Source: a virus
DNA length: 64,000 bases
IMG/VR virus record: IMGVR_UViG_3300030108_005940
Location: 60,776-124,775 of that record
Strand: one strand, 5' to 3'
This document shows positions 3,524-55,737 of this stretch, piece by piece (position 1 is the first letter of the stretch; each line of letters opens with the position of its first letter). Under the pieces are notes generated by a model. That model had not been told where the DNA came from and did not search any database. It saw only the letters and a list, made by a program, of their open reading frames with translations. The position numbers were made by a program, and so were the translations under genes.

Positions 3524-5035
3524 ATGAGTTCCTTTGACTATACCGATAATTTTAACGGCTTTAATGATTTATTCAACAGGGTAGATTTACTTAACGAAGC
3601 TAAAAAATCTCCTTATGAAAAGTACCACCCTTCCTTCGGTGGTGTTACTAAAGATTTAAGATCTGCTGGTTTTAGTTCTGCTCCATTAGATACAATTAAT
3701 TTTATTAGGACAGCGTTGTATAATTTAGAATTAATTAGTGATGAAGAACTTGCAGCTGCTAAAAAAGGAGCTGGATTTGCTGCTAAAAAGAAAAATCTTT
3801 TAGCTTTGCTGGATGCTAAAGAAGATGTCATTGAAGCAAATAAAGATAAAATAGCAGAAGAGATTAAAGATGGTTTAGCTCGTTATATCAATAGAGCGAC
3901 CGTTGATAGAGGTAAAGAAGAAAAATATGCAGCACAAAAAGCTGCTTTAGAGTTAGCTAAAGATATTAAAGCAGGTGAAGATATGGGAGACGCTGTTGAA
4001 GATGCTGTTGGTCAGATGAGTGAAGGTGAAAAAGAGCTAGCACAGAGTATTGAAATTGCTAAGACAGATCCGACTACGTTTATTGAAATTAAAATTAGGG
4101 ATGCAGATAAGATAGAAGAAGTTGGAAGTATTGTTACTAAGTATGCTAACGAAGATGGGTTGGATATAAGCGGTGATACTGTACAGTTTTCGGTTGATCC
4201 GGATACACCACTAGCTGCAGCAGTTACAAAGCATGGAGTTGATAGAATTGAAGCAGCTCTTAAGAGGGATGTGGATGCAATTAGTGATAGTGTTGTTGTA
4301 GTTATGTCACCTGAGGAAGATTACGAGCAAGATTTATATGGTACAGAAGGTGCAGAGAGTTATGCTGCTAACGAAGAGGGTAATGGAATTACTGAAGTAG
4401 AAGATGCAGAAGATCTTAGTGCTAAGAAAGCTAGAGCAGGAAAAGATATCGGAAAACCTGGAAAGAATTTTGCTAAAATAGCAAAAAGCGCAGGCAAAAA
4501 GTATGGTTCAAAGGAAGCAGGTGATAGAGTAGCGGGAGCTGTGCTAGCTAAGATGAGAGGTAATTACGAAGGTGAAGAAGTAATGGTTGGTGCAGAAGTT
4601 ATGTGGGACGGTCTACAAAAAAGCGGAGTAGTAGATGAGGTGGATTTTGAAAACAACGTTGCGATTGTAGTAGATCAAGATGGAGAAGATCATGTTGTAC
4701 GGTTAGGTGACTTTGATGTTATTAATTCGGTTGAAGATAATGAACTTGATGATTTCTTAACTCATGAACACCCTGAAGAACATATGCCTGATGATTATGA
4801 AGAGGTATTAGATGCTCTTGTTGATGATGATAAAAAGAAGCATGCAATGAAGAAGCTTAACGGTGAAGATGAAGAAGAACTTCAAGTTGAAAATACTACT
4901 GCAGCTTACTTAACTGAACAAAAGGAAAGTGATAAGCGTAATAAAAAGACAGTAGTTAAAAATCAATCATTCAAAGAAAGATACGAGCCTAAAACATCTT
5001 GGCAGTTAGAAGAGCTTAGAAAATACGGTCTTTAA
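3524..5035 (+). CDS. acidic putative internal virion protein with capsid-targeting-like leader
   Basis: A 503-residue Glu/Asp/Ala/Lys-rich protein of unknown function. The first 26 residues are rich in Phe/Asn/Leu and end in Leu-Leu-Asn-Glu-Ala, an (L/I)-x-E site of the kind cut by T4 gp21. The middle is helical and low complexity. Around residues 315-345 is a segment GKPGKNFAKIAKSAGKKYG, a pattern that recurs in marine T4-like phage proteins. It is followed by a small beta segment (EVMWDGLQKSGVVDEVDF) like a KOW/SH3 barrel. It is a lone plus-strand gene in the minus-strand replication block, with its own late promoter. Packaging in the head is inferred. Confidence 0.55.
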   Translation: MSSFDYTDNFNGFNDLFNRVDLLNEAKKSPYEKYHPSFGGVTKDLRSAGFSSAPLDTINFIRTALYNLELISDEELAAAKKGAGFAAKKKNLLALLDAKEDVIEANKDKIAEEIKDGLARYINRATVDRGKEEKYAAQKAALELAKDIKAGEDMGDAVEDAVGQMSEGEKELAQSIEIAKTDPTTFIEIKIRDADKIEEVGSIVTKYANEDGLDISGDTVQFSVDPDTPLAAAVTKHGVDRIEAALKRDVDAISDSVVVVMSPEEDYEQDLYGTEGAESYAANEEGNGITEVEDAEDLSAKKARAGKDIGKPGKNFAKIAKSAGKKYGSKEAGDRVAGAVLAKMRGNYEGEEVMVGAEVMWDGLQKSGVVDEVDFENNVAIVVDQDGEDHVVRLGDFDVINSVEDNELDDFLTHEHPEEHMPDDYEEVLDALVDDDKKKHAMKKLNGEDEEELQVENTTAAYLTEQKESDKRNKKTVVKNQSFKERYEPKTSWQLEELRKYGL

Positions 5036-17496: not shown

Positions 17497-17907
17497 ATGG
17501 AATCAACAGGTAGATTTGAACAGCTATTTTTAAAAATATTAAAAGAGGATATAGATTCTAGTGCATTTGGTGATGGTCCTTCAATGCATGATATATATAC
17601 TCCAAGCGAACCTAATTCAAAAGATGGGTATGCACCTGGTGATGCAAGAATACCTAAAATTTTAGGTAAAGGTAAAATTCAAACTCGTAAAGGTTTAGCT
17701 GGTAAAAAGAAGAGAGATAAAAATAAAGGAATTAATTATTTAACTGGGGAAGAGAATGAAGAAGATTTACCGGAAGAAGATGCAGAAAAGAAAAAAGCAG
17801 ATAGATGTAAGCGTAAAGCTGATTCTGTATATGGAAAAAAGACTTCAGCATATAAATCAGGAGCTATAGTAAGATGCAGAAGTGGTAAAATATGGAAAAA
17901 GAAATGA
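17497..17907 (+). CDS. Lys-rich putative packaged protein with targeting-like leader
   Basis: A 136-residue basic protein. The first 17 residues form an amphipathic helix (RFEQLFLKILKED) with Leu15-Lys16-Glu17, a fit to the gp21 (L/I)-x-E cleavage rule. The body is charged and low in hydrophobics. The C-terminal region, ADRCKRKADSVYGKKTSAYKS then GAIVRCRSGKIWKKK, is a Cys/Lys module seen in many marine T4-like phages, close to DUF5872-type sequences. It could bind DNA in the capsid. The next gene starts within its stop codon. Function inferred only. Confidence 0.6.
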   Translation: MESTGRFEQLFLKILKEDIDSSAFGDGPSMHDIYTPSEPNSKDGYAPGDARIPKILGKGKIQTRKGLAGKKKRDKNKGINYLTGEENEEDLPEEDAEKKKADRCKRKADSVYGKKTSAYKSGAIVRCRSGKIWKKK

Positions 17908-18338
17908 GTATGTCACAAAGAGAAATTCTTGAAGCTAGTGACTCACTACGTCAGTGGTTTGATAGAGGTGGTACTGATCCTAAAACTGGTAAAAAGTTTA
18001 AAGGTTGGGTAAATTGTAAGACCGGAGGACCCTGTGGTCGTAAATCTAAAAAATCTGGTGGTAGCTACCCGGCTTGTCGTCCAACTAAAGCAGCTTGTAA
18101 AAGTATTAAAGGTAAGATGTACAAGAAGAAAGGACCGAAGCGTGTTAACTGGAAGAATAAAAAGAAAAAGAGTGAAAATGCTGAAGATGTACATAAGCCT
18201 GTTAAGCCTGGTATCTTAAAGAGTCGACTAGGTAAACTATCTTGTAGTAAAGTAAGAGGTGCAAAAGGTAAACTTAAAAATAAGGGTACACATTATGCAA
18301 AAGCTCTACAGCGTTATTTAAATTATCACTGTCAGTAA
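17904..18338 (+). CDS. Cys/Lys-rich DUF5872-like protein
   Basis: About 144 residues, very basic. I prefer the ATG at 17904, which forms an ATGA overlap with the previous stop; an in-frame ATG at 17892 is also possible. The early segment MSMSQREILEAS holds Ile-Leu-Glu-Ala, a possible gp21 site. Residues 20-65 have WVNCKTGGPCGRKSKK and YPACRPTKAAC, the W-V-x-x-K-T-G-x-P-C-G pattern of DUF5872-like proteins. A second module (KSRLGKLSCSKVRGAKGK to LNYHCQ) closes the protein. The conserved Cys may bind zinc. A nucleic-acid role is inferred from charge. Confidence 0.6.
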   Translation: MSMSQREILEASDSLRQWFDRGGTDPKTGKKFKGWVNCKTGGPCGRKSKKSGGSYPACRPTKAACKSIKGKMYKKKGPKRVNWKNKKKKSENAEDVHKPVKPGILKSRLGKLSCSKVRGAKGKLKNKGTHYAKALQRYLNYHCQ

Positions 18339-18344
18339 TAAATA
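18337..18344 (+). promoter_or_regulatory. late promoter box AATAAATA
   Basis: AATAAATA overlaps the preceding stop codon and ends 5 nt before the ATG at 18350. Confidence 0.5.
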
Positions 18345-18349
18345 ATATT

Positions 18350-18814
18350 ATGCAATTCGACGAACTAGTAAAACACCTCTTAAAAGAAAACTGGAAACGA
18401 GGAACCTCAAAGTCTCCTAAGGGTAAATCATTTGATATGTCGAGAGGAGGAGCTCCTAGCAATGTAGATGCTGCAAGTGACGGTTCTGGTGGTAGGTATA
18501 GACGTACACGACCTCCAAGCGCACCATCTAAGAAGACACACGGTGAGATGGAAGAAGAACCAGAAGAAGATGCTGAAAAGGTAGACAAAGATCGTATGAA
18601 GTGTAATAGTCCTCGTCGTACTTCAGGTGGTTCTAAGAAATTCGTTGTTAAAGCTTGTAAAGATGGTAAAGAAAAGATTGTACGCTTTGGGGATCCGAAT
18701 ATGAAGATCAAAAAGAGCAATCCAAAGCGTAGAAAGTCATTCCGCGCACGTCATAAGTGTGATCAGAAGAAAGATAAGTTCTCTGCTGGTTACTGGTCTT
18801 GTAAAAAGTGGTAG
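18350..18814 (+). CDS. basic putative packaged protein with targeting-like leader
   Basis: A 154-residue protein. The leader MQFDELVKHLLKENW is amphipathic and contains Leu11-Lys12-Glu13, a gp21-type site. The middle is Gly/Ser/Arg-rich and disordered, then acidic (EMEEEPEEDAEK). The C-terminal 50 residues (IVRFGDPNMKIKKSNPKRRK, then RARHKCDQKKDKFSAGYWSCKKW) form a Cys-bearing module that I recognise as widespread in marine T4-like phages but without a known function. It is the third Lys/Cys-rich protein in a row, suggesting a set of DNA-associated head proteins. Confidence 0.6.
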   Translation: MQFDELVKHLLKENWKRGTSKSPKGKSFDMSRGGAPSNVDAASDGSGGRYRRTRPPSAPSKKTHGEMEEEPEEDAEKVDKDRMKCNSPRRTSGGSKKFVVKACKDGKEKIVRFGDPNMKIKKSNPKRRKSFRARHKCDQKKDKFSAGYWSCKKW

Positions 18815-19206
18815 ATTTGGGTCATTGGGAGGGGGTTCTAGAAGAAAGTACGGACCTACCTTACGGTTTCATTTATAAGATAACTAATCTTACTAATGAC
18901 AAGAAGTATATTGGTAAAAAACAGTGCCAGTCAATAAGAAAGCGTCCCCCTTTGAAGGGTAAAAAGAATAAACGTCATGAAAGAATAGAAACTGACTGGA
19001 AGACTTACACATCTTCATCAAATGAGCTTAATAAAGACTTAGAACAGTTAGGAAAGGATAATTTTAAGTTTGAAATACTTAGATGGTGTGATTCCAAGTG
19101 GGAGTTGAGTTATTACGAAGCTAGATTACAATTTAAAGAAGAAGTATTGCTACGTAATGACTACTATAACGGAATCATCAATGTCAGAATCGGAGGACGT
19201 AAGTGA
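18808..19206 (+). CDS. GIY-YIG-like nuclease domain protein
   Basis: A 132-residue protein starting at GTG 18808, overlapping the previous stop. GFIYKITNLTNDKKYIGKK (residues 20-38) is a GIY-YIG-like strand pair (Y-x-Y-K-I-T-N ... K-Y-I-G). DWKTYTSSSNELNKDL and YEARLQFKEEVL follow the order seen in phage GIY-YIG proteins. These enzymes make single- or double-strand DNA cuts with a metal ion. Before the domain, Leu11-Glu12-Glu13-Ser fits a gp21 site. The presence of the catalytic Arg and Glu should be confirmed by alignment. Confidence 0.6.
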   Translation: MVDLGHWEGVLEESTDLPYGFIYKITNLTNDKKYIGKKQCQSIRKRPPLKGKKNKRHERIETDWKTYTSSSNELNKDLEQLGKDNFKFEILRWCDSKWELSYYEARLQFKEEVLLRNDYYNGIINVRIGGRK

Positions 19207-19651
19207 TCCTATACGTGGTTTTGAGTTTATTAACCTTAACAAGTGTTTAGCAAGGTCTTTTAACCAATATTTGTTGTATATTACTGAAAACGAGCTTAAA
19301 TTAACAAGAAAAGATAAGAATAAGCTTGGTATACACTTTATTATTAAAGAAATAGTTAAGGTTTGCTCTAAAACTAGTAACAGAAAGTGGTTTTATTATA
19401 AGACCAATATTAAAACAATAGAATATACCCTAGTAAAGCGTATTTTTAATGCACTACCTACTAATATTACATACAGTAAAGAAGATTTTACTACATTCTT
19501 AGATGAAAGAGACTATATCTCTTTTAATAAAAAAGACAAATCAGCAGTTTCATTTTATAAGTTTAGATTATTTCTTAGAAGGTACGAATTACAACAGATT
19601 GAAAGTGAGTTTCTATCTAATATAAATATAAAACTCTCACTACTTCCATAA
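19157..19651 (+). CDS. hypothetical helical protein, up to 164 aa
   Basis: A basic, mostly helical protein of unknown function, with Lys/Phe/Tyr-rich segments (KWFYYKTNIKTIEYTLVKRIF, FYKFRLFLRRYELQQIE). It overlaps the GIY-YIG gene. The first ATG is at 19157; an in-frame ATG at 19181 (MSESEDVSDP) gives a shorter overlap and is equally likely. There is no Shine-Dalgarno site to decide. No domain is recognised. The position between two cassette members suggests the same expression time. Confidence 0.55.
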   Translation: MTTITESSMSESEDVSDPIRGFEFINLNKCLARSFNQYLLYITENELKLTRKDKNKLGIHFIIKEIVKVCSKTSNRKWFYYKTNIKTIEYTLVKRIFNALPTNITYSKEDFTTFLDERDYISFNKKDKSAVSFYKFRLFLRRYELQQIESEFLSNINIKLSLLP

Positions 19652-19654
19652 ATA
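19647..19654 (+). promoter_or_regulatory. late promoter box CATAAATA
   Basis: CATAAATA ends 5 nt before the ATG at 19660 and overlaps the previous stop codon. Confidence 0.55.
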
Positions 19655-19659
19655 TATAC

Positions 19660-20028
19660 ATGAGTAAGTTTCTTAAGCTGATCGATGAAAATAGACCAGG
19701 TATTAATAGTGAGTATGTAATTTCCATTCAAGGACCTGCTGAGTTTGAAAATATTAACGTTTCAGGAGATGAATTTACATACGATTTACATGAAAAGATA
19801 AAAGCTGTAGTTGAAGGTAGAGCTGATATTATAGTTCATGAAGAAGATCAAGAAGGTATTTTGTCGGACAAAGAAAGAGATGCTTTGAAGGTTGCTTCTG
19901 AGTTAGTAAAGGAACCTAAAAAGAGTGCATTTGGTAGGGATCCTAAAAAGGCTCTTCAAAAATCCCTTGGTAAAATGTATAAAGGAATATCAAAAAGAGT
20001 GAATGATGTAGCTAAAGATTTATCATGA
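19660..20028 (+). CDS. small putative packaged protein with targeting-like leader
   Basis: A 122-residue protein. The leader MSKFLKLIDENRP matches the Met-Lys-x-Phe-type start shared by several genes here and contains Ile8-Asp9-Glu10, a gp21-type site. The middle is a short alpha/beta stretch (YVISIQGPAEFENINVSGDEF). The C-terminal 50 residues are basic and helical (KKALQKSLGKMYKGISKRVND). No family is recognised. The stop overlaps the next start by 4 nt, so translation is probably coupled. Confidence 0.55.
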   Translation: MSKFLKLIDENRPGINSEYVISIQGPAEFENINVSGDEFTYDLHEKIKAVVEGRADIIVHEEDQEGILSDKERDALKVASELVKEPKKSAFGRDPKKALQKSLGKMYKGISKRVNDVAKDLS

Positions 20029-20366
20029 AAAAAACATTAAAATTAATAGAACAACAATTAGCTTTACTTGAGCAGGATGCAGTTGAAGAGGTAGATGTTG
20101 ATGTTGAAATAGATGATGCAACTAATGTTGCGGATATACCAAAATCACCTCGAGGTATTACCCCAGAGGGTGAGGTATATGTAGCTGATTTGTTAACAAA
20201 CGCTTTTATATACGCACCAAGCATGGACGATATTAATATTGCTGCAGAATCAAATAAGGTGTTTGGAAGAACAGAACCTAGAAAAGTTATCGAGACAATC
20301 GAAAGGTTAGTTGAATTTTCTGATGAAACTGTTGAGCAAGAACTTGAAGATTTAGACGCACAATAA
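20025..20366 (+). CDS. small acidic putative packaged protein with targeting-like leader
   Basis: A 113-residue acidic protein. The leader MKKTLKLIEQQLALLEQDA is an amphipathic helix with Leu-Leu-Glu at residues 14-16. It is followed by an acidic linker (VEEVDVDVEIDD) and a helical domain with SPRGITPEGEVYVADLLTNAF. No enzyme motif is seen. It lies between two cassette genes with an ATGA overlap upstream and a 1-nt gap downstream. Function unknown; virion location is inferred from the leader. Confidence 0.55.
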   Translation: MKKTLKLIEQQLALLEQDAVEEVDVDVEIDDATNVADIPKSPRGITPEGEVYVADLLTNAFIYAPSMDDINIAAESNKVFGRTEPRKVIETIERLVEFSDETVEQELEDLDAQ

Positions 20367-20367
20367 T

Positions 20368-21522
20368 ATGCAGTGGTCATTGGAAGATATCTATAAGAAG
20401 CAGGTACGGGGTAAAATTCCTGTGCGTAAACATCTACGAGTGTTAGGCGAAGATAATCAACAACAATTATTTAGACAATTGACTGGTGGTCAACGTAAAG
20501 GTGAAGAAGTTACGGTTTCACAAAAAGATCAAGAATCTGGTAAATATGATGTTGAGATAGGAGAGACGTTGACATTAACAGATGAAGATGTAGAAAATTT
20601 TAATTTATTATCTGATACCGATAAGCAAAAAATTAAAAAAATGTTAGATAGTAAAAATTTTGCTGGTCTATCTAGAAGCGCACTACACGGTGAAAGTGAA
20701 AAATATAAAAACCAGGCATATGAAATATTATTAAAAAGCGGTGAATTAACCGGAGATCAATTAGAAAGTGTTTTGAGAGATATTCAAGCTGGAAAAGCAG
20801 TAAACGTTAATAAATTAGTAACACCCGGTAATTATAAGATACGTGATATATTTACTTCAGATGAATCTTTAACAGCTTTTAATTTATTACGTAATATTGG
20901 CTCTGGTGATTTACAAAAAGGACCTGGAGAGGTTGCTTTAGATTTAATGTCTCCGGATATTAACCTTTCTACAAAAGGAGACATTGACATTAATGGTGAA
21001 CTGTATGAGTTAAAATTAAATGGAGGTCGTATAAGTGATAAAGCTGGACCAGATCCAAAGAAGATGAAAGATTTAATTGAATCTTATATAGGACCATTTG
21101 ATTTAGGTCAGCAAGTTTTAAATATAGAAAACTTTATTAAATTATTAAACGAAAGAGCTAAAACCAACCCCGATATTAATTTTAAAGAATTAGCTTATAG
21201 GGTATTTTCCTCTATCCTTGATGAAGAGCATTCAATTTCTATAGCAAATTTATTTGAAACTGTACCTTTGAACTTTGATAAAATTAATAATGAAGTAATT
21301 AAACAGAGTTTTAACTGGTATAAAGATACTAAAGCAGGGACAGATGGTGAGTGGGATAAGCTTATAGGTATTAACACAGCAACTGCTGTACCTGGAGTTG
21401 CAGTTGTATCAACAGGAGAAGAATTTACAAAAGTGCCGCAGAAAAAACTTAACATTAATATTATTCGATCTGGGTCCGGTACCAGAGAAAATTATATAGA
21501 TTTTTACCCTAAAATTGGATGA
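20368..21522 (+). CDS. PD-(D/E)XK-like nuclease candidate
   Basis: A 384-residue protein starting MQWSLEDIYKKQVRGKIPVR, an N-terminus that recurs in marine T4-like phages. Leu26-Gly27-Glu28 could be a gp21 site. GPGEVALDLM (Glu188), KGDIDING (Asp205 and Asp207) and YELKLNGG (Glu214-x-Lys216) give the E...D...E-x-K order of PD-(D/E)XK nucleases. This fold cuts DNA with Mg ions in restriction, repair and packaging enzymes. The C-terminal 150 residues are not recognised. It overlaps the ligase-like gene by 4 nt. Nuclease activity is a prediction from motif spacing. Confidence 0.5.
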   Translation: MQWSLEDIYKKQVRGKIPVRKHLRVLGEDNQQQLFRQLTGGQRKGEEVTVSQKDQESGKYDVEIGETLTLTDEDVENFNLLSDTDKQKIKKMLDSKNFAGLSRSALHGESEKYKNQAYEILLKSGELTGDQLESVLRDIQAGKAVNVNKLVTPGNYKIRDIFTSDESLTAFNLLRNIGSGDLQKGPGEVALDLMSPDINLSTKGDIDINGELYELKLNGGRISDKAGPDPKKMKDLIESYIGPFDLGQQVLNIENFIKLLNERAKTNPDINFKELAYRVFSSILDEEHSISIANLFETVPLNFDKINNEVIKQSFNWYKDTKAGTDGEWDKLIGINTATAVPGVAVVSTGEEFTKVPQKKLNINIIRSGSGTRENYIDFYPKIG

Positions 21523-22727
21523 AAAAATTTAAATTATATTTTGAAGATTACTTAGAGCTTCTAGAAGAAGCTAAAGCTAATACTCACTTAACACATCTTG
21601 AAGAATTAATTCTTACCAAGGGAGCTGGGGGATATGATCAAGCTAAAGGCTTTTTAGTTAATTTACTAGGTCATCTACAAGGAAAGAGTAAGAGAAAGAT
21701 CGGTACTACGGTAAAATGGGATGGAGCGCCTGCTATTTTTGCAGGTAAACATCCAGAAACTGGTAAATTTTTTGTTGGTACTAAATCTATCTTTAATAGA
21801 GAGCCTAAAATTAACTATACTGAGCAAGATATTGAAGTTAACCATGGACACGCTCCTGGTTTAGCAGATAAACTTAAAAAGGCTTTAAAATATCTACCTA
21901 AATTAGGTATTAAAAACATTGTACAAGGGGACTTTATGTTTGATTCTTCTTCTGTAAAGAAAGAAAACATCGATGGTGAGGTACATTACACTTTTCAACC
22001 AAATACAATTAAGTATGCTGTAGAAGCTGACTCAGATTTAGGTAAGCAAATAGCTAACTCTGTGTTTGGTATTATATTTCACACTGAATATGATGGTTTA
22101 GATAGTCCTGCATCATTTGGTGCCAAGGTAAACAAATTAAAGAAGGTACCAGGTGTATGGTTTGATGATGCTTTCTTTAAAGATGATACAGGGGTAGTAA
22201 ATTTAACTAAAGATGAAGTAAAGCAGGTTAGAGATTTAATAAAAACTGCTGATTCTATCAAAATAGATTACAAAGACTTACCTTCAGATCTTCTCAACCC
22301 TTATATTAATACGGAGATTCGAGAAGGTAAGTTCTTAAATGATCCAGAAGAGTCTTATAGGAACTTTATTGATTGGTATACATCTAGAATTAAAAAAGAA
22401 ATAGATAAGAGAAAATCTGTACGAGGTAAGCAAAGATTAGAAGAAACACTTAAGCAAAAAACGGCTCAGTTTGAAGCTCAAAAAGATGATATAGTTAATT
22501 TGTTTAAAGTAAGTAGTTTACTATCACAAGCTAAACAAATCTTTATTAACAAGTATAATAATGCTGTATATAATACAAAGCACTTTATCGATGAAGGTGA
22601 AGGTGTATTGAGAGTTACTTCTCCGGAGGGATATGTAGCAGTTGATAGGGATGGTAATGCTGTTAAGCTTGTTAACCGGTTAGATTTTAGTTCAGCTAAC
22701 TTTCAAAAAGATAAGCCCGGGTCATGA
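21519..22727 (+). CDS. ligase-like nucleotidyltransferase (DUF6267-like) with targeting leader
   Basis: A 402-residue protein. The leader MKKFKLYFEDYLELLEEA closely resembles the T4 capsid-targeting peptide and has Leu15-Glu16-Glu17 before Ala18. THLEELILTKG follows. TTVKWDGAPAIFAG (Lys66-x-Asp-Gly69) is motif I of the covalent nucleotidyltransferases (DNA/RNA ligases, capping enzymes); FFVGTKSIFNR and VQGDFMFD could be motifs Ia-III. The C-terminal third is helical and Lys-rich. RNA or DNA joining, or protein/RNA nucleotidylation, is predicted. It overlaps both neighbours by 4 nt. Confidence 0.65.
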   Translation: MKKFKLYFEDYLELLEEAKANTHLTHLEELILTKGAGGYDQAKGFLVNLLGHLQGKSKRKIGTTVKWDGAPAIFAGKHPETGKFFVGTKSIFNREPKINYTEQDIEVNHGHAPGLADKLKKALKYLPKLGIKNIVQGDFMFDSSSVKKENIDGEVHYTFQPNTIKYAVEADSDLGKQIANSVFGIIFHTEYDGLDSPASFGAKVNKLKKVPGVWFDDAFFKDDTGVVNLTKDEVKQVRDLIKTADSIKIDYKDLPSDLLNPYINTEIREGKFLNDPEESYRNFIDWYTSRIKKEIDKRKSVRGKQRLEETLKQKTAQFEAQKDDIVNLFKVSSLLSQAKQIFINKYNNAVYNTKHFIDEGEGVLRVTSPEGYVAVDRDGNAVKLVNRLDFSSANFQKDKPGS

Positions 22728-23263
22728 GGACATTTAAGGAGTATTTCGAAGATATGGAGACGAGAGTGGATAGAATCGCTCTACTCCCGGGTGGTTTTAA
22801 ACCTCCAACAAAGGGTCATTTTAATGCTTTGAGGTATTTACTTGATGATGCTGATCGTGGTGTTGTATTTATTGGTGGTAAGGAGCGTGAAGGTATTACA
22901 CCTGAGCAATCTGAGCAAATATGGAACATATATACAAAGTATGTTGATAAGCCTGTTGAAGTTGTATATGTACCTAATCCAGTAAGAGCTGTATATGATT
23001 TTGCTGATAATAATTTAGACAAGACTTTGCTCGTTGGCGCTGGTGAAAAGGACGAAGATGTTAAACGTTATAAATATTTTTTAGATAATGTTGAAAAATA
23101 CCCCTACGTTAATGTAGTAAAGATACCTATGCAAGAAGAAGGTATATCAGGTAGTGATACTAGAAAAATGATACAACAAGATATAGATGATGCATTAGAT
23201 TATTTTGTACCTGATAATGTATCCATTGAAGATAGAGATCAAATAAAAGCTATACTAGCATAA
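22724..23263 (+). CDS. HxGH-type nucleotidyltransferase with targeting leader
   Basis: A 179-residue enzyme. Residues 1-12 (MRTFKEYFEDME) are a T4-like capsid-targeting leader, though without a clean (L/I)-x-E site. LLPGGFKPPTKGHFNAL (20-36) is the nucleotide-binding (T/H)xGH signature, and GISGSDTRKMI near the C-terminus is the ISxTxxR motif. This superfamily includes NMN adenylyltransferase, pantetheine-phosphate adenylyltransferase and cytidylyltransferases. Phages such as KVP40 carry NadM-like enzymes for NAD synthesis. The substrate cannot be read from sequence. It overlaps the ligase-like gene by 4 nt. Confidence 0.75.
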   Translation: MRTFKEYFEDMETRVDRIALLPGGFKPPTKGHFNALRYLLDDADRGVVFIGGKEREGITPEQSEQIWNIYTKYVDKPVEVVYVPNPVRAVYDFADNNLDKTLLVGAGEKDEDVKRYKYFLDNVEKYPYVNVVKIPMQEEGISGSDTRKMIQQDIDDALDYFVPDNVSIEDRDQIKAILA

Positions 23264-23266
23264 ATA
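23259..23266 (+). promoter_or_regulatory. late promoter box CATAAATA
   Basis: CATAAATA overlaps the preceding stop codon and ends 5 nt before the ATG at 23272. Confidence 0.55.
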
Positions 23267-23271
23267 ATAAT

Positions 23272-23706
23272 ATGAGAGATAAGAAGCGTAAAGAATTAGC
23301 TATGCTTGAAGAAGCCTATACAAAGGTTAATGAAAATTTAGGACCAGCAGCTCTTACTGCTTCAGTACCAGGTGTAAGTCAAATGCCTTTAGTAGTTGCA
23401 CAAGAACCTGTTGAAGACGAAAGTTGTGGTGAATATGATCAATCAGAAATTGATATGGCGGGTAGAGATTTACTTAAAGCACAAGAGTACGCAGCTAAGT
23501 TAACCGCTATGGTACAGCAGGTTCCAGGTTTAGATGGATGGGTTTCCGCTAAGATAACAAAAGCTTCAGATTATCTTTCCTCTGTATACCATTTTCTCGA
23601 TTATGAGTTACGCGAAAAACCACAAGAAGTTGTTGTAGATGTAGAGGAGATTGAAGCTCCAGTAGACGTCTTTAATGTTGGGTATGAAGAAGCAGAAACC
23701 ACTTGA
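23272..23706 (+). CDS. conserved T4-like phage protein with targeting-like leader
   Basis: A 144-residue protein. The basic leader ends at Leu12-Glu13-Glu14-Ala15, a good gp21-type site. Residues 60-115 (LLKAQEYAAKLTAMVQQVPGLDGWVSAKITKASDYLSSVYHFLDYE, quoted here only in part as GWVSAKITKASDYLSSVYH) are a helical module I recognise from many marine T4-like phages, without a known role. The C-terminus is acidic and Val-rich. It has its own late promoter box and is likely a head-internal or head-associated protein. Confidence 0.6.
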   Translation: MRDKKRKELAMLEEAYTKVNENLGPAALTASVPGVSQMPLVVAQEPVEDESCGEYDQSEIDMAGRDLLKAQEYAAKLTAMVQQVPGLDGWVSAKITKASDYLSSVYHFLDYELREKPQEVVVDVEEIEAPVDVFNVGYEEAETT

Positions 23707-23713
23707 CCTGATT

Positions 23714-23721
23714 CATAAATA
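23714..23721 (+). promoter_or_regulatory. late promoter box CATAAATA
   Basis: CATAAATA ends 9 nt before the ATG at 23731, in the only intergenic space between the two genes. Confidence 0.55.
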
Positions 23722-23730
23722 GCAGTTGTT

Positions 23731-24171
23731 ATGAAGAAGTTTAACCAATTTTTTATAGAAAAACAAGTCTTAGGATTAATAGAATTCTTTGATGTGGATG
23801 GTGTTGGTAAAATTCCTTCAAAGCTTGATTCCGGTAATGGTGCATATAACGTTATACATGGTGAAGATATACAAATACAGGGTAATAAAGTATTGTTTAG
23901 AACAGTAAATAACAAACACCTTATAAAAGATAAAATAGACGATATTGTTATTAACGTAGGTGCAGGTAATACAGAAGAAAGACCTGTAGTTAACTTCGAT
24001 CTTAAAATAGGTAATAAAGAGTTTAAAGATATTCCTTTCTCAGTTGGTAATAGAGAGAGTAACTTATTTAAAATATTAGTAAGTAAAGAATTTATTGAAA
24101 AGGAACTCGATGCTCTTATTGACGTGAGTCAGGAAAATATTGCAGGTAAAGATATTGAAGCTAATTACTAA
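23731..24171 (+). CDS. retropepsin-like aspartic protease candidate with targeting leader
   Basis: A 146-residue protein. The leader MKKFNQFFIEKQVLGLIE is very close to the T4 peptide pattern and has Phe-Ile-Glu (8-10) and Leu-Ile-Glu (16-18). IPSKLDSGNGAYNVIHG (28-44) resembles the D-[ST]-G catalytic loop (Asp33-Ser34-Gly35) of retropepsins and RimK-associated proteases (K-L-D-T-G-A). VNFDLKIGNKEFKDIPFSV and NRESNLFKILVSKEFI follow the strand order of that fold. The Asn in place of Ala after the DSG is unusual. It would act as a dimer. It ends in a 4-nt overlap with the converging gene. Confidence 0.5.
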   Translation: MKKFNQFFIEKQVLGLIEFFDVDGVGKIPSKLDSGNGAYNVIHGEDIQIQGNKVLFRTVNNKHLIKDKIDDIVINVGAGNTEERPVVNFDLKIGNKEFKDIPFSVGNRESNLFKILVSKEFIEKELDALIDVSQENIAGKDIEANY

Positions 24172-24698
24172 AACCAAGTAGGTTTCCAGCGTAATGTCCA
24201 AGTAGCAAAGTCTTTATCATGACGAATATACTCTCTATATTTGTCAATTGTAGAAAGATTATCAAAACCTTCTACTTTTCTACAATCGCAATCATTGCTG
24301 ATAGCTAAAGCATAATCGGTTAAACCAGTTTTACTCATAATTGTATTATGAATATTTTGACCACACCACTCAATAAACGTTTTTGTAAAATGCTCTTTAG
24401 ATTCAGGCCACCTATACATACGTTCAGTAAACATTTCCAGCGTATGGTCAACTAACCATATAAAGTTATCTTTAGTTTCTCTTGCCCATATAGAACATTG
24501 ATGGTTGAAATAACCTTTACCTCTTCTTCGAGGTTTTCCTGTTGAAGTTCTAGGAGTAGAAGGATGATCTAACACTTCTTGAGGAAATGCATGTGCTAAC
24601 ATAATAGCTCCTTCAATTTGCATCTTTGATCTTACATGTTGATCACATAAATTATAAGTAGAGACGATAGGGTCGTCATCCGTTACAAAAATATTCAT
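24168..24698 (-). CDS. conserved phage protein (MNIF-x-x-D-x-DP type)
   Basis: A 176-residue protein. The N-terminus NIFVTDDDPIVSTYNLCDQH and the C-terminal TWTLRWKPTWF follow a pattern I recognise from many large phages (start MNIF...D-x-DP, early Cys-Asp-x-His-Val). No function can be assigned. There are several conserved His, Cys and Trp. It lies immediately downstream of folE2 on the same strand (22 nt), so a link with deazaguanine metabolism or DNA modification is possible but not shown. Confidence 0.6.
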   Translation of the reverse strand: MNIFVTDDDPIVSTYNLCDQHVRSKMQIEGAIMLAHAFPQEVLDHPSTPRTSTGKPRRRGKGYFNHQCSIWARETKDNFIWLVDHTLEMFTERMYRWPESKEHFTKTFIEWCGQNIHNTIMSKTGLTDYALAISNDCDCRKVEGFDNLSTIDKYREYIRHDKDFATWTLRWKPTWF

Positions 24699-24720
24699 TC
24701 CTTTATTGTAGAAATGTTCC

Positions 24721-25770
24721 TTATCTTAATCCAGTAGATTCAAAAACATCTCTAGTAACACCAGCTTTAAAACCACCTTCAATACCTTTTACAATAACCG
24801 ATACAGCATTGTGACTATGTAAGCTTTCGTTATGAGAAGCAACGATCTTAAAGTCTAAAATACGAGATTCATTAGTAAGTTTTTCATAAAGCAATCTAAC
24901 TGCATCTTCTACAAACTTTAAATAAGCACCATTCTTTTCAGCAAATGCTTGCTCATCTTCCCTCTTAACCATAACTTGAGTCTCAGTCTGTAAAGCCGCT
25001 AGGCATAACTCTTGAATATCTTCAATCCAAAGCATATCTTCAAATCTAACACTAACACGAGCAACACTTCTTTGACTATGAGGTACAGTAGCTCTATTAC
25101 GATATTTTTCAGCATGCTCACTTAACTCAAAGCTGCAAGGGCAAGCAGAAGAATAAACAAAATCAAAATGAATATACTTTTTAAATTGACCATCTTTAGT
25201 TAAATCACCTTCAAATACTACATCATAATACTGATAACCTTCTAAACCACTACGTAAACTATTTTGCTTAATAGGGTAAGATATTTTAAGCATTATTCTA
25301 GAATCAAAGCACTTAAGATTATTTTTATAAGTTTCTAAAACATCTTTAATTTTATCTATACTAAACGTTTCATCTTTATGATCATAAAAACTTCTCATAA
25401 TACGTGACATATTAATACCTTTCTTATGAGCTTCTAAACTAACACTACCTGTTACACTTGTTTCAAGTTCAATAGTTTTACCATTTCTTTTCTTGTATGT
25501 TAAAGGTAATTTAAAATTATGTATACCAACTTGTTGAATAGGAACTGCTGCTCCTTGAATTAAACTAGAAGGTCCGTTCTGAAGATCAGGTAATGAAGAA
25601 ATATATTTTTTATTAGCGTTAACTTTATCATCATAAACTCTAATAGGAGGAAAATAACTCTTGCTATATTCCTCGCCCATTAACTCTTTTGCAATAATAT
25701 CCTTTTCACCAGTTAGTTCATCATCTTCACCTAACCATTCATAATTAGTATCTTCTTTACTTTTACTCAT
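24721..25770 (-). CDS. folE2: FolE2, GTP cyclohydrolase I type IB
   Basis: A 349-residue enzyme that converts GTP to 7,8-dihydroneopterin triphosphate, the first step to preQ0 (and folate). HKKGINMSRIMRSFYD and YSSACPCSFELSEH (with the catalytic/metal Cys) are GCYH-IB signatures, and RVSVRFEDMLWIEDI plus VASHNESLHSHNAVSV complete the T-fold. The N-terminal 60 residues are a phage-type extension. Type IB enzymes use several metals and do not need zinc. It has an early-type promoter just upstream. Partners QueD, QueE and QueC are in the window. Confidence 0.9.
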   Translation of the reverse strand: MSKSKEDTNYEWLGEDDELTGEKDIIAKELMGEEYSKSYFPPIRVYDDKVNANKKYISSLPDLQNGPSSLIQGAAVPIQQVGIHNFKLPLTYKKRNGKTIELETSVTGSVSLEAHKKGINMSRIMRSFYDHKDETFSIDKIKDVLETYKNNLKCFDSRIMLKISYPIKQNSLRSGLEGYQYYDVVFEGDLTKDGQFKKYIHFDFVYSSACPCSFELSEHAEKYRNRATVPHSQRSVARVSVRFEDMLWIEDIQELCLAALQTETQVMVKREDEQAFAEKNGAYLKFVEDAVRLLYEKLTNESRILDFKIVASHNESLHSHNAVSVIVKGIEGGFKAGVTRDVFESTGLR

Positions 25771-25780
25771 GTATATTATT

Positions 25781-25807
25781 ATTATAGTTACAATATTTCT
25801 ATTTCAA
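25781..25807 (-). promoter_or_regulatory. sigma70-like early promoter for folE2
   Basis: On the minus strand TTGAAA (25802-25807) and TATAAT (25781-25786) are separated by 15 nt; the -10 box ends 10 nt before the folE2 ATG. The spacer is 2 nt shorter than ideal. Confidence 0.45.
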
Positions 25808-25809
25808 GA

Positions 25810-25816
25810 CTAAATA
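25810..25816 (+). promoter_or_regulatory. late promoter box CTAAATA
   Basis: CTAAATA ends 6 nt before the ATG at 25823. It diverges from the folE2 promoter in the same 52-nt gap. Confidence 0.5.
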
Positions 25817-25822
25817 TTGTAG

Positions 25823-26542
25823 ATGAGTAAACAATCTCAAAAAAAATTATTAAATGAAGGGTTTGGCTCTTTACTTAGAAAGAGCTTAGCTAGCGCTGCA
25901 CGGGGTGCTGCAGCTGCCGGAGGCGCTTTAAAAAGTGCATCAGATGCCGGGGTTAAGGCTAGTGTAGGGGGTATTGTACAAGGTGCTAAAGCTGGGTATG
26001 AAAAAGAAAAAGAGGCACAAAAAAAAGCAGTTGGTAAAGATGCTAAATTAAAAAGCTATATAGAGGATTTAGCTTTATTACCTATAGGTTCCTTTCGAGG
26101 TTCCGGTGATATAAGAGTTATAGATGTAGCTGAGTTGGATTATGATGATGAAACTGGTGAAGAAAAGAAAGGACAAATATTTAGTAAACCTTTAGTAGTT
26201 AAATGGGATAAGGATGATAGAGCATGGTCTACAGTTAGGTCACCAAAAGGTGAAGAGCAACCAGATATAAAAAAGAAGAAGAAAAAGAAAACTAAAGAAA
26301 AAGTTGCCGTATTTAAACCTAATGTAGGTCAAGAGGTGTTAGTTCGTACAACAAAAGTGCCTACAGGTGAACCCGGAATCGTTAAGCAACTTAACCCAAA
26401 CGGCCGTATAACAGTAGCTACTGCAGGTAACAAAGCTGGTTATGCTTTTAATCCAAAAAATGTATTACCTAACCCTAGAGTTAAAAATGAAAATAGTTCC
26501 CAAAGAATTCTGCTGAGACAGTTGACTTTGCTTATAGACTAA
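25823..26542 (+). CDS. putative internal head protein with targeting-like leader
   Basis: A 239-residue protein. MSKQSQKKLLNEGFGSLLRK carries Leu10-Asn11-Glu12-Gly13, a gp21-type site and a start I recognise from marine T4-like phages. An Ala/Gly-rich helical segment (residues 24-58) follows, then a beta-rich region with LALLPIGSFRGSGDIRVID, a poly-Lys stretch (KKKKKKKTKEK), and a KOW-like barrel (GQEVLVRTTKVPTGEPGIVK). The leader and basic composition suggest a DNA-associated head protein. It is a single-gene late unit between two early genes. Confidence 0.55.
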   Translation: MSKQSQKKLLNEGFGSLLRKSLASAARGAAAAGGALKSASDAGVKASVGGIVQGAKAGYEKEKEAQKKAVGKDAKLKSYIEDLALLPIGSFRGSGDIRVIDVAELDYDDETGEEKKGQIFSKPLVVKWDKDDRAWSTVRSPKGEEQPDIKKKKKKKTKEKVAVFKPNVGQEVLVRTTKVPTGEPGIVKQLNPNGRITVATAGNKAGYAFNPKNVLPNPRVKNENSSQRILLRQLTLLID

Positions 26543-26627: not shown

Positions 26628-27251
26628 ATGACTTATACATCTTCGAAAGTAATTGAACTTGGCTCTACTGCCTTTCGCCAGCCTAACTCAGACTCACATT
26701 GCAGATTTATTCATGGATATCAACTAAAAGCAGAACTAACGTTTGGTTGCAATAATCTAGATAAAAATAATTGGGTATTTGACTTTGGTGCTCTTAAAGA
26801 ACTTAAAACAATATTTAATAATCAATTTGATCATACTTTAGTTGTTGCAGGTGATGATCCTAAATTAGATCTTCTAACAGCGTTAAATGAAGCAGGTGTT
26901 GCAGATCTTCGAATTATGGATGGTGGTGTTGGAATTGAAAAATTTGCTGAGTGGTGTTTTAAGACTGCAGATACATACGTTGAAGAGACAACAGAAGGTA
27001 GAGTCTGGGTTGAAAACGTAACAGTATTTGAACATGGTAGTAATTTTGCATCAGTTAGTAAACCAATTGAAAAAGAAACTATTTTTTTAGACGAAGAAGG
27101 AACTAAAACAGTTGTACAACCAGAGGAAGATACAACACCTACACCACAAACACCTTTACAACAAATTCCTAAACCCAAACAAGGAGCTGTTGTAGGCAAT
27201 AAACCTACGCAAGGTAAAGGTAATTGGTTTGAAGGTACTACTTGGGGTTAA
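26628..27251 (+). CDS. queD: QueD, 6-carboxytetrahydropterin synthase
   Basis: A 207-residue T-fold enzyme of the PTPS family that turns dihydroneopterin triphosphate into 6-carboxytetrahydropterin. SHCRFIHGYQLKAEL (24-38) holds the catalytic Cys and zinc His; WVFDFGALKEL, FDHTLVV and VTVFEHGSNFAS are further family marks. The canonical HGH pair reads HGY, and the upstream zinc His is not obvious, as in other phage members of this subfamily. The C-terminal ~50 residues (Pro/Thr/Lys-rich) are extra. It follows an early-type promoter and converges with phoH. Confidence 0.85.
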   Translation: MTYTSSKVIELGSTAFRQPNSDSHCRFIHGYQLKAELTFGCNNLDKNNWVFDFGALKELKTIFNNQFDHTLVVAGDDPKLDLLTALNEAGVADLRIMDGGVGIEKFAEWCFKTADTYVEETTEGRVWVENVTVFEHGSNFASVSKPIEKETIFLDEEGTKTVVQPEEDTTPTPQTPLQQIPKPKQGAVVGNKPTQGKGNWFEGTTWG

Positions 27252-28027: not shown

Positions 28028-28786
28028 ATGTCTATAGATTGTGATAAAGAAACCTTATTAGTATCAGATGATAAAGCATTCTATACTCTTGAAGGTGAAG
28101 GTGAATATGTAGGGATGCCTTCGGTATTTTTTAGATTATCAATGTGCAATTTAACATGTCAGGGCTTTGCATCAGAAGATTCACCTCATGGTTGTGATTC
28201 ATTTATATCTTGGTCTGTTAAAAATAAAATGACATTTAATGAAATCTTTCAATATTTCGAAGATCATAATCTTGTTGATAAGTTAAAAGCTGGAGCTATA
28301 TTTAAAATTACCGGTGGTGAACCGATGGTACAGCAAAAAGGCTTACTTAAATTTATGGAAGCTTTTATTAAGAAGTATGAGTTTGGTCCTATTATTGATT
28401 TCGAAACTAATGCTACTATTAAGCCAGATGAAAAGTGGGTTAATCTTTATAGAGCTACTTTTACAACATCACCTAAATTAACTACTAATGGAGATCCAGA
28501 GAAAAGGACGTATAAACCTGAAGTACTAAAATGGCATAGAGATGTAGGCTCAGGATTTAAGTTCGTTATTTCACAGTCTGAAGATATTGATGAAATATGG
28601 CGTAAGTATGTTGAAGATGGTGATGTAAATATACCTAAACAAAGAGTGTGGTTTATGCCATGTAGTGGTAGTAGAGAGGAGCATGTTAATAAAGCTCCTG
28701 CTGTTGCAGAGTATGCTAAGGCAATGAACGTTAACTTTTCACCACGTCTACACTTACTGCTCTGGGATATGGCTTTAAAGGTTTAA
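28028..28786 (+). CDS. queE: QueE, 7-carboxy-7-deazaguanine synthase (radical SAM)
   Basis: A 252-residue radical SAM enzyme that makes the deazapurine ring of preQ0 from 6-carboxytetrahydropterin. TLEGEGEYVGMPSVFFRL (20-37) is the QueE start. Cluster cysteines are Cys40, Cys44 and Cys56 (CX3CX11C, then Asp-Ser), a spacing unlike the common CX3CX2C. KITGGEPMVQ (about 100) is the SAM-binding GGE motif; DFETNAT and SPKLTTNGD also match. It opens the long plus-strand gene series, 16 nt before the P-loop gene. Confidence 0.88.
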   Translation: MSIDCDKETLLVSDDKAFYTLEGEGEYVGMPSVFFRLSMCNLTCQGFASEDSPHGCDSFISWSVKNKMTFNEIFQYFEDHNLVDKLKAGAIFKITGGEPMVQQKGLLKFMEAFIKKYEFGPIIDFETNATIKPDEKWVNLYRATFTTSPKLTTNGDPEKRTYKPEVLKWHRDVGSGFKFVISQSEDIDEIWRKYVEDGDVNIPKQRVWFMPCSGSREEHVNKAPAVAEYAKAMNVNFSPRLHLLLWDMALKV

Positions 28787-28801: not shown

Positions 28802-29524
28802 ATGAGAATTGCATTTTCAGGGACAGGGAATAGTGGTAAAACAACACTTGTAAAAAGTTTTTTATATACATGGGATAATTATATAACCCCAAAAAAGACT
28901 TATAGGGAAGTTTTACAAGAAGAAAATTTACCTCATTCTTCAAACACTACTACTGATACACAAGAAAAAATATTGAACTTTATGATTGATCAAGTTCAAT
29001 CTGCAGATAAAGACAGTAATATTATATATGATAGATGTCCATTAGATAATATTGTTTATTCTTTATGGTGTAATGAAAAGAAGATTGATGGTTTTTCCAA
29101 TTCATATATTCAAGAGCAAATTGAACTTATGAAAGAGTCAATGAGATTTTTAGATATTATATTTTTATGTAGATTTGATGAATCACAGTCTATTGAAGAT
29201 GATGGAGTAAGAGATATTGATAAAAATTTTATAACAGAGATTGATAATATATTTCATTCAATGTATTTACAATATTCTCAAAACCCTGAATCAGATGTGT
29301 TTTTTCCAAAGGGTGATTCACCTTGTATAATTGAATTACCTCACAAAGGACAAGAGAGAATAGATCTTATACAGCAATATATTACTGCAGAAGGTGGTAT
29401 GTATGGAGATGATGAATCAATTTTTAATAATATAGATGAATTAGAGCAGTTAGTAACTCAACAAAAAATGGCTTTAGATCAAGAAGAGAAAGAAAGAGAA
29501 CTATACAAGAAGTTTGGGTTATGA
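28802..29524 (+). CDS. P-loop NTPase (AAA_28/NadR-like)
   Basis: A 240-residue protein with Walker A FSGTGNSGKTT (residues 5-15), a Walker B-like IIYDRCPLDNIVY (about 74-86) and a lid-like GVRDIDKNF. The layout resembles nucleoside/nucleotide kinases and the NadR ATPase. The C-terminal ~50 residues are charged and probably coiled (LEQLVTQQKMALDQEEKERE). The substrate is unknown. It overlaps the next glycosyltransferase by 4 nt and so heads the surface-sugar operon. Confidence 0.65.
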   Translation: MRIAFSGTGNSGKTTLVKSFLYTWDNYITPKKTYREVLQEENLPHSSNTTTDTQEKILNFMIDQVQSADKDSNIIYDRCPLDNIVYSLWCNEKKIDGFSNSYIQEQIELMKESMRFLDIIFLCRFDESQSIEDDGVRDIDKNFITEIDNIFHSMYLQYSQNPESDVFFPKGDSPCIIELPHKGQERIDLIQQYITAEGGMYGDDESIFNNIDELEQLVTQQKMALDQEEKERELYKKFGL

Positions 29525-52441: not shown

Positions 52442-53107
52442 ATGTCATTAAAGCTTAACTTGGTTGTAGAAAAACCTGATGTGAACGATGAGTTCGAATA
52501 CATTGAAGAAGAAGTAGATAGAAACTCACCTTCGAATTTATATATAAAAGGTCCTTATATGATGGCTGAAGGGGTAAATAGAAATAATCGTTTATACCCT
52601 CTAGATGAATTACAAAGAGAAACACAACGTTATATTGAGGAAATGGTTACACCAGGCCGTGCAATGGGAGAGCTAAATCACCCAACATCAGCAGATGTAG
52701 ATCTAGAAAGAGCGTGTCATATGGTAACAGAGTTAACCCAAGATGGAAATGTATTTTATGGTAAGTCAAAAGTATTATCTACGCCGTGTGGTCAAATAGT
52801 TAGATCTTTAATAAATGACGGTGTAAAAGTAGGTATGTCTTCACGAGCTTTAGGCACACTTGAAGAGAGTAGTGAGCATAGTACCGTTAAAAATATGAAA
52901 TTAGTTGCTATTGATTGTGTAGCAGATCCATCATATCCAAAAGCTTTTGTTAATGGTATATTAGAATCTAAACAATGGGTATTGGTTGATGATAATAAAT
53001 ACGAAGAAGTTTATGAAAATTTTGAAAAATCACTACAAAAACTACCAAAAAAAGACATTGATTTGTTTTTACGTAACAGAATCCTTAGCTTTATTAAATC
53101 AATATAA
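52442..53107 (+). CDS. 21: prohead protease gp21
   Basis: A 221-residue S78-type serine protease. GPYMMAEGVNRNNRLYP (about 36-52), GELNHP (His catalytic, about 80) and VGMSSRALG (Ser catalytic, about 137) are the family marks. In T4 it cuts head proteins after (L/I)-x-E and then itself. Targets fitting this rule in the window include gp22, gp23 and the leaders of the 17497-26542 cassette. Confidence 0.93.
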   Translation: MSLKLNLVVEKPDVNDEFEYIEEEVDRNSPSNLYIKGPYMMAEGVNRNNRLYPLDELQRETQRYIEEMVTPGRAMGELNHPTSADVDLERACHMVTELTQDGNVFYGKSKVLSTPCGQIVRSLINDGVKVGMSSRALGTLEESSEHSTVKNMKLVAIDCVADPSYPKAFVNGILESKQWVLVDDNKYEEVYENFEKSLQKLPKKDIDLFLRNRILSFIKSI

Positions 53108-54204: not shown

Positions 54205-55737
54205 ATGAATAAACCACAATCATTTATTGATAGAGATAGGGCAGATACACTTCTTGAGAAGTGGGCACCTGTTCTTGATTATTCATCCGATAGTGTTAAG
54301 GCTATTGATGACGACCACACTCGCTTGAATACTGCTATTCTTCTTGAGAACCAAGAGCAATGGTGTATTGAGGAGAGTTCTTCTGTTGGTGGAGGTTCTT
54401 TCGGAAAAGGTGCTACTATGTCGAGTTTATACAACCCGTCACAAGGTACCATCAATTCTGGAGATAACTACGCCGCAGGTGATGCTCGTCTTCCAAAAGT
54501 TCTTATTCCAATGATTCGTCGTACGTTCCCCGAGCTTATCACAAATGAGATTGTTGGCGTGCAGCCTATGTCTGGTCCTGTTGGACTTGCATTCGCACTT
54601 CGTTATGCTTATCAGAATGAATACCTTGGCTTTGGTGTCGATGGTACTGATAAGAACGGCGCCCTCACCGGTCCTGGTAACCCTCCTAACACCCCTGCAG
54701 GTGCAGCTTCTGGCGCACGTACTGGTGGTGCTGGAAATAACTACACTGGTGTAGACGGTCTTAATGCTGACGAGCTTGGATACCAACTTCTTGATACAAG
54801 ATTTACCGGTGCTTCTTCTTACGGCTTGTCCGGAGATGATTCTAACTGGTCTTTCGCTGATCAAGATCGAGGTGTCGCTCAAATTCTTTCCGCATTTGAG
54901 ATTACTGGTAACATTCCTCAGGTTGAGGTTAAGTTCGAGAAGACCGCTGTTGAGGCCGGCACACGCCGCCTTGGTGCACGTTGGTCCGTCGAGCTTGAGC
55001 AAGACCTTAAGAACATGAACGGTATCGATATTGATGCTGAAATCACGAACGCTATGTCGTACGAGATTCAAGCTGAGATCGACCGTGAAATGCTCATGAG
55101 AATGATCCAGGCTTCTCTTAATGCTGGAGCTAACAGAGGATTCTCCTTCTGGTCACCTGCTTCTGCAGACGGCCGTTGGATGGTTGAGCGTAATAGGGAC
55201 TTCTATCAGCGTATCATCATTGAAGCTAACCGCATTGCTGTGCGTAACAGGCGTGGGGCTGCAAACTTTATTGTTTGTACTCCTCGTGTTGCCGCCATTC
55301 TTGAAATGCTCCCTGAATTCCAGTGGGTACCCGTTCAAGGTGACGTAAATACACAACCTGTTGGTATTGCTAAGGTTGGTTCACTTGGTGGAAGATTCAA
55401 CGTTTACCGTGATACTCGTACAGAGGTTCAGAACTCTAACATCTATGATGAGCAAACTTACACAACGAATGGTGCTACACGTACCGACGCTATTGAGTAT
55501 GCTCTTCTCGGATACAAAGGTCCTGAATTCTACGATACTGGTATCATTTACTGTCCTTACATTCCTGTCATGGTTCAGAGAACTATTGGTCCTAACGACT
55601 TCGCACCACGTGTTGGCTTGCTTACTCGTTATGGTGTTGTTGACAACATCTTCGGAGCAAATCTCTACTATCATGTCATTCTTGTTCAGGGACTCGGTAC
55701 TGCGTTCACTCCAGCTTCTCAGTCGGTGTACTTCTAA
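54205..55737 (+). CDS. 23: major capsid protein (gp23)
   Basis: A 510-residue HK97-fold capsid protein. The N-terminal ~57 residues are a delta region ending at Cys-Ile-Glu-Glu-Ser (Ile55-x-Glu57), the expected gp21 cut, as at T4 residue 65. FPELITNEIVGVQPMSGPVG (about 109-128), RWSVELEQDLKNMNGIDID and the C-terminal YHVILVQGLG are gp23 marks. Codons are visibly richer in C and G at third positions than neighbours, consistent with very high expression. It has a strong Shine-Dalgarno site, unlike nearby genes. Confidence 0.97.
   Translation: MNKPQSFIDRDRADTLLEKWAPVLDYSSDSVKAIDDDHTRLNTAILLENQEQWCIEESSSVGGGSFGKGATMSSLYNPSQGTINSGDNYAAGDARLPKVLIPMIRRTFPELITNEIVGVQPMSGPVGLAFALRYAYQNEYLGFGVDGTDKNGALTGPGNPPNTPAGAASGARTGGAGNNYTGVDGLNADELGYQLLDTRFTGASSYGLSGDDSNWSFADQDRGVAQILSAFEITGNIPQVEVKFEKTAVEAGTRRLGARWSVELEQDLKNMNGIDIDAEITNAMSYEIQAEIDREMLMRMIQASLNAGANRGFSFWSPASADGRWMVERNRDFYQRIIIEANRIAVRNRRGAANFIVCTPRVAAILEMLPEFQWVPVQGDVNTQPVGIAKVGSLGGRFNVYRDTRTEVQNSNIYDEQTYTTNGATRTDAIEYALLGYKGPEFYDTGIIYCPYIPVMVQRTIGPNDFAPRVGLLTRYGVVDNIFGANLYYHVILVQGLGTAFTPASQSVYF

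Follow-up and report, generated by a model that had tools for sequence, protein, structure and literature searches.

A leader-bearing gene cassette of an uncultured T4-like phage: a probable internal-protein kit with a copied gp23 arm

We studied a 64,000-nucleotide stretch of viral DNA (the window), i.e., positions 60776-124775 of the 154,604-base virus record IMGVR_UViG_3300030108_005940; all gene coordinates are window positions. The phage is a marine T4-like myovirus (gp20, gp21, a gp22-like scaffold protein and gp23 are present), and its closest cultured gp23s are those of cyanophages (~33%). Between 17497 and 26542, with a possible outlier at 3524, lies a cassette of genes with short N-terminal leaders that very probably forms a T4-type internal-protein kit, including one member (17497) that carries a copy of the N-terminal arm of the capsid protein gp23. 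This arm copy, found in 17497 and in T4 gp61.1, is the new and most surprising part. The targeting reading is supported by independent lines, namely late promoters, exchange of leaders and bodies, sites at module boundaries, the gp23 site and the leaders of cyanophage virion proteins. No match to the cassette at near identity was found among the phage records searched.

Leaders, predicted cut sites and late promoters

An earlier note on this DNA had listed eleven genes with short amphipathic leaders resembling those that send T4 internal proteins into the prohead, most of them with an [LI]xE site within 30 residues, and had placed the prohead protease gp21 in the window. All listed open reading frames exist with the N-termini quoted, as do the quoted sites (that range is free of them in 22724), and gp21 is recognisable as Peptidase_S77. 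A further leader-bearing gene within the interval, 20368, had been overlooked. Two other genes inside the interval, 18808 (GIY-YIG, SegE-like) and 19157, are without leader.

That leader and site together exceed chance, as the earlier note had held, was borne out by a scan of all 152 called genes of the record (13 cassette genes and 139 others). Here, the leader pattern M..[FY]..[FYLI][ILVF].[ED], which was fixed from the T4 internal protein IPIII before scanning, fits 4/13 cassette genes (19660, 21519, 22724, 23731; the other cassette leaders are variants) and 1/139 others. At interior positions the pattern occurs at 0.001 per site, i.e., 0.013 fits are expected in 13 genes, and within the 60-80 kb region of T4 it picks only ipII and ipIII among 39 genes. 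The site [LI]xE is found within residues 5-34 of 11/13 cassette genes compared to 44/139 others (Fisher 2.7e-4), and the stricter [LI]xE[AGS] in 5/13 compared to 12/139 (Fisher 0.007).

In T4 mutants, residues 4 and 7 affect targeting and residues 8 and 10 processing, while Asp10 in IPIII gives targeting without processing (PMC9026906). These rules are compatible with MKKFKLYFED, where the cut site LLEE/A (slash: predicted cut) lies further on, and with MRTFKEYFED. The phage's own gp23 is predicted to have the same site type (IEE/[AS]) as the cassette leaders; for its clade, the propeptide is predicted to end in WCIEE/[AS], given 24 gp23s aligned at the site and knowledge of T4.

A T4-type late motif ([ACT][ACT]TAAATA, within a 28-base stretch whose end is 5 bases upstream of the start) is present at 7/7 unit heads (17497, 18350, 19660, 23272, 23731, 25823, 3524). 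Elsewhere, it precedes 16/33 virion, 3/17 replication and 1/27 metabolic genes, and its rate at random positions is 1.4%. That is, judged by its promoter motifs, the cassette is transcribed like the head genes (late class).

Leaders and bodies are exchanged at the predicted cut. The body of 17904 is 92-96% identical from the post-site residue onwards in four relatives (L019, L016, L036, L044) with unrelated leaders; variants in this family are SMSQREILE/ASDSLRQWF, SKFEQALESYLEE/ASDSLRQWF and SEFDRLVEHYLNE/ASDSLRQWF. The leaders of 18350 vary among relatives (MITFEQFYTELLQE/A, MTTEFDALFEHLLTE/A, MKSFKYYFFE/A). For 20368 it is the leader that is kept: its 28 residues, ending in [LMI][GD]E, recur in relatives, and between two body groups the leader is 86% identical vs. 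17% for the body. All that the bodies have in common is a GxGE...GD...ExK core, kept in 18 variants. An assignment of these bodies as unrelated was dropped, and since the alignment gave a common PD-(D/E)XK-like core, the claim is reduced to a constant leader on a strongly diverged body; Pfam returned one weak match only for ten variants. The leader of 23731 is conserved in relatives, and that of 22724 is an addition, because its homologues in the PDB start at residue 17 (PPAT match, E 0.004).

As a separate observation, leaders recur in front of different bodies in the T4-like Flavobacterium phage immuto_2-6A (L011, 9282-25919; MKKSQLRQIIKEA, MKKSQLREIIRKEL, MKKSELVKLIKEEL), with an NFDLKKFLVENKLTxNSKxLKE-like leader occurring three times; its body at 18172-18642 has a C-terminal module in common with 17497.

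A copy of the gp23 arm in 17497 and T4 gp61.1

Residues 18-56 of 17497 (about 17548-17664) copy the N-terminal arm of mature gp23; upstream of the gene stands TATAAATA. Against the arm that follows the predicted cut in the gp23 of the same phage, the copy scores 94-98 (shuffle p 5e-4), and reciprocal searches in relatives lead from a gp23 query to 17497 homologues and vice versa. Cyanophage arm copies have strings in common with their own gp23 (P-HM2 TNVGPINTQTT; Syn9 TTGYTGGD; S-CREM2 GFTGAAAP). The similarity of copy and own gp23 is significant in 12/13 marine and cyanophage pairs, and the matching of copies to their own gp23 over the 13 pairs was beaten by none of 20,000 permutations (p 0.008 for the cyanophages and p 0.0065 for the marine clade when taken separately). 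The diagonal of the cross-phage arm score matrix reads 98/103/100/95/82. That is, the copy follows its own phage's gp23 where arms differ strongly; the gp23 arms of Straboviridae are too similar to tell own from other.

T4 gp61.1 (54 residues) consists of MKTFKEFIKE, a copy of gp23 residues ~66-93 (shuffle p 2e-4) and a lysine-rich tail. By sequence, 17497 is the counterpart of this uncharacterised protein: both combine a leader, a copy of the own gp23 arm and a Lys-rich tail in a like architecture, while in 17497 the leader is longer and an RCxSGKIWKKK module is added (also in S-CREM2 gp160). Matches to gp61.1 were found in 1438 phage records, in most of those inspected next to the primase gene (61). 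This adjacency holds for T4, other Straboviridae and cyanophages, but not for 17497, whose neighbour is a uvsY-like open reading frame (identity by sequence reading). Among the matches of a literature search on gp61.1 there was, judging by the abstracts, no paper on the protein. Of the arm-copy proteins, two (S-CREM2 gp160, S-SCSM1_97) were detected in virions or are labelled as virion protein. Proteins of the gp61.1 type also carry 'major head/capsid protein' annotations (L012:13506-14030 and several 61.1 records), evidently via the arm copy.

We infer that the arm copy most likely docks on the inner gp23 lattice, at the arm site of a neighbouring subunit. Alternatively, the copy could be a functionless relic of gene conversion, or it could tune gp21 as a decoy substrate. 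It does include the cut-site context (LKE in 17497, IKE in gp61.1), and gene conversion would be expected to make a copy follow its own gp23. We nevertheless hold this explanation to be unlikely: the copy is present in more than 1000 T4-like records as well as in cyanophage and marine clades, it is retained in proteins that otherwise change, and two cyanophage members are virion-detected.

Cargo bodies and cassette inventory

Respective coordinates and annotations are summarized in Table 1.

Table 1. Cassette members and head genes of the window (a slash marks the predicted cut)
Feature	Coordinates	Strand	Leader or site	Further evidence
gp61.1-like protein	17497..17907	+	MESTGRFEQLFLKILKE	gp23-arm copy; basic RCxSGKIWKKK module
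Small basic Cys-rich protein	17904..18338	+	SMSQREILE/A	start is an in-frame ATG within the 17892 open reading frame
Small basic protein	18350..18814	+	MQFDELVKHLLKE	phrog_7595 1e-18
Diverging-body protein	19660..20028	+	MSKFLKLIDENRPG	leader conserved in relatives
Acidic protein	20025..20366	+	MKKTLKLIEQQLALLE	isoelectric point 4.1
PD-(D/E)XK-like, strongly diverged body	20368..21522	+	MQWSLEDIYKKQVRGKIPVRKHLRVLGE, 28 residues, ends VLGE	GxGE...KGD...ExK
DUF6267 with ligase motif KWDG	21519..22727	+	MKKFKLYFED-YLELLEE/A	PF19782 3.8e-99 from residue 21
NMNAT/cytidylyltransferase-like	22724..23263	+	MRTFKEYFED (Asp at 10)	phrog_3041 1e-3
Acidic protein	23272..23706	+	MRDKKRKELAMLEE/A	
PF05618-like protease domain	23731..24171	+	MKKFNQFFIE	PF05618 1.3e-4 (below cut-off); PDB 9g58 1.2e-3
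Basic protein	25823..26542	+	MSKQSQKKLLNE/GFGS	leader conserved in relatives; body varies
Possible outlier member	3524..5035	+	LLNE/A at residue 25	late promoter
gp21 prohead protease	52442..53107	+		Peptidase_S77 1.9e-32
gp23	54205..55737	+	WCIEE/S	PF07068 1.6e-89; predicted cut after Glu57 (codon 54373-54375)

For DUF6267, we fetched eighty homologues of 21519. The ligase motif I (KWDGAPA) is invariant in the family, and [LIV]xE[AGS] lies at most 8 residues from the core in 38/44 distinct relatives (chance 0.027 per 8-mer). In many relatives a nucleotidyltransferase precedes DUF6267 in one fused protein, and 20/20 such fusions have a site before DUF6267. Within 16 non-redundant fusions there are five motif-rich positions, of which four fall in the leader or on the borders between modules and the fifth inside DUF6267. 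Since sites are conserved in the leader and at module boundaries, the fused form resembles a cargo polyprotein for gp21, which we infer it may be. A 631-residue DUF6267 frame (L049:10001-11893) has 22724-like sequence behind it, the reverse of the domain order in the other fusions.

The earlier note had further suggested that the virion may inject an enzyme kit. Its targeting part stands, given leaders, promoters, exchange and relatives; enzymes make up only part of the set, for which the label is plausible, as several members are small and basic (isoelectric points 9.5-10.4 for 17497, 17904, 18350, 25823) or acidic (4.1-4.3 for 20025, 23272). One could therefore also read the packaged proteins as structural core or DNA-condensing components, most of them without action in the host. 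The small, very basic or very acidic members resemble T4 core proteins, and the gp23-arm copy suggests a role in the head. On the other hand, the DUF6267, NMNAT-like and nuclease-like bodies, together with the hypervariable body of 20368, look host-facing, and the T4 internal proteins with such leaders (Ip1-3) are injected anti-restriction proteins (PMC12373910). We thus consider a mainly structural set somewhat unlikely. PADLOC gave no match, and 3524 is without homologues among the relatives searched.

Outside the window (G000, 54024-54458), a gene that has a late motif and lies beside a primase-like open reading frame starts with MTKFERRFFKSLTEQ and possibly encodes a further leader-bearing protein. 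In the window, 5032-5787, 24721-25770, 26628-27251 and 28028-28786 hold QueC, FolE2, QueD-like (PTPS) and radical-SAM QueE-like genes, a 7-deazaguanine (preQ0) pathway set that perhaps serves DNA modification. At 28802-44166 follows a sugar/nucleotide-sugar cluster (PfkB kinase, cytidylyltransferase, phosphoribosyltransferase-like, DegT aminotransferase and glycosyltransferase genes), which resembles ADP-heptose-type synthesis.

Virion evidence and comparison with known systems

Cyanophages share the cassette neighbourhood, i.e., DUF6267 beside a cytidylyltransferase. According to the respective proteome studies, S-SM1_190 (T4-GC190) was found in purified virions (PMC3037559), S-CREM2 gp154 and gp136 were both virion-detected (PMC10665884), and S-SCSM1 virion proteins were identified by mass spectrometry (PMC9602691). 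In the record annotation, S-SCSM1_91 and its neighbours 89, 90, 92, 93, 95 and 97 are named 'virion protein'. The N-termini read MKKFSAFLNE/AER (S-SM1_190), MKSFLQFLKE/AAE (S-SCSM1_91), MKNFSSFLTE/ADE (S-CREM2 gp154) and MQTFSMFFSE/DAG (S-CREM2 gp136). Within proteome-covered stretches, the leader pattern fits 2/59 proteins of S-CREM2 and 1/57 of S-SCSM1 (3/116 in all), each of them virion-detected. The passages of the proteome papers examined make no mention of targeting leaders, and a literature search joining capsid targeting, internal proteins and cyanophages returned a T4 review only.

Several observations weigh against an internal-protein kit. First of all, virion presence is by proxy only: the phage is uncultured, and mass spectrometry concerns cyanophage homologues and neighbours. 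The proteome authors consider the enzymes possible contaminants, and discuss injection too (PMC10665884, PMC9602691). The DUF6267 proteins of P-HM2 and S-PM2 are leaderless as annotated, thus packaging is not universal for this family. In fold searches, the top PDB match for 20368 is HinP1I (E 0.63), and RNA and DNA ligases are among the top matches for DUF6267 (E 0.2 or worse), neither significant; the arm-copy candidate S-PM2 p150 is not significant either (p 0.46). Regarding cleavage, [LI]xE alone is common (0.25 per 30 residues), MRTFKEYFE(D) and MKKFNQFFIE carry Tyr/Phe at P3, and the P1' position is unfavourable in five leaders (D, N, Q, F or K; 17497, 18350, 19660, 20025, 23731), such that these weakest sites may stay uncut.

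The frequency of [LI]xE, together with the part of the leaders that falls outside the T4 pattern, could be taken to mean that the leaders are ordinary amphipathic helices, by chance or for binding to membranes or complexes, with coincidental sites. Given the leader and site statistics, the exchange exactly at the site, the late class and the cyanophage homologues that carry the same leaders and were detected in virions, we regard such a coincidence as very improbable.

For an internal-protein kit, late transcripts would yield some twelve precursors, which would bind to the core of the prohead through their N-terminal leaders and so enter the assembling head. Many of them would be cut by gp21 after [LI]xE, and the mature proteins would remain with the DNA and presumably pass into the host upon infection. 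The cargo would comprise the NMNAT-like nucleotidyltransferase, the KxDG ligase-like DUF6267 protein, the hypervariable PD-(D/E)XK-like nuclease and the PF05618-type protease domain, beside several small basic or acidic proteins, with 17497 docked inside the gp23 lattice through its arm copy. At the sequence level, we consider leaders, sites, promoters, exchange and arm copy established. Packaging is likely in this phage, because virion-detected cyanophage nucleotidyltransferases carry textbook T4 leaders and because of the modularity at the site and the gp23 site. Cleavage is predicted from the site motifs, injection would follow by analogy, and enzyme function of the cargo in the host is plausible from its motifs; counter-defence as the host role, as for T4 Ip1-3, is a reasonable guess only. 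More tentatively, but as a possibility to be taken seriously, the arm of gp61.1 and 17497 may be a second, capsid-mimicking packaging signal (cargo or DNA docking), accompanied in some relatives by polyprotein cargo cut by gp21.

For uncultured T4-like phages, these results provide sequence rules by which packaged proteins can be spotted; they also offer a possible explanation for the enzymes repeatedly seen in cyanophage virions. For the T4 gene 61.1, they suggest a testable role, namely that of a protein inside the head which mimics the arm of the capsid protein.

Among known systems, T4 IPI, IPII and IPIII are alike in having short leaders with aromatic or hydrophobic residues at 4 and 7/8 and Glu/Asp at 10, in the presence of gp21, in being late genes and in carrying similar leaders on unrelated bodies. 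The present cassette differs from them in gathering a larger kit at one place, in its enzyme-like bodies and in its several leader classes, and the relatives differ in having fused forms with internal sites. The cyanophage virion cytidylyltransferase/NMNAT family (S-SM1_190, S-SCSM1_91, S-CREM2 gp154) has T4-type leaders and is virion-detected, and the S-SM1 gene adjoins DUF6267 as in the window, whereas similarity to 22724 is weak (23% identity, E 4e-4). In the giant phages SPN3US and phiKZ (ejection proteins), many prohead proteins likewise lose propeptides after a Glu, but with another protease branch and another head.

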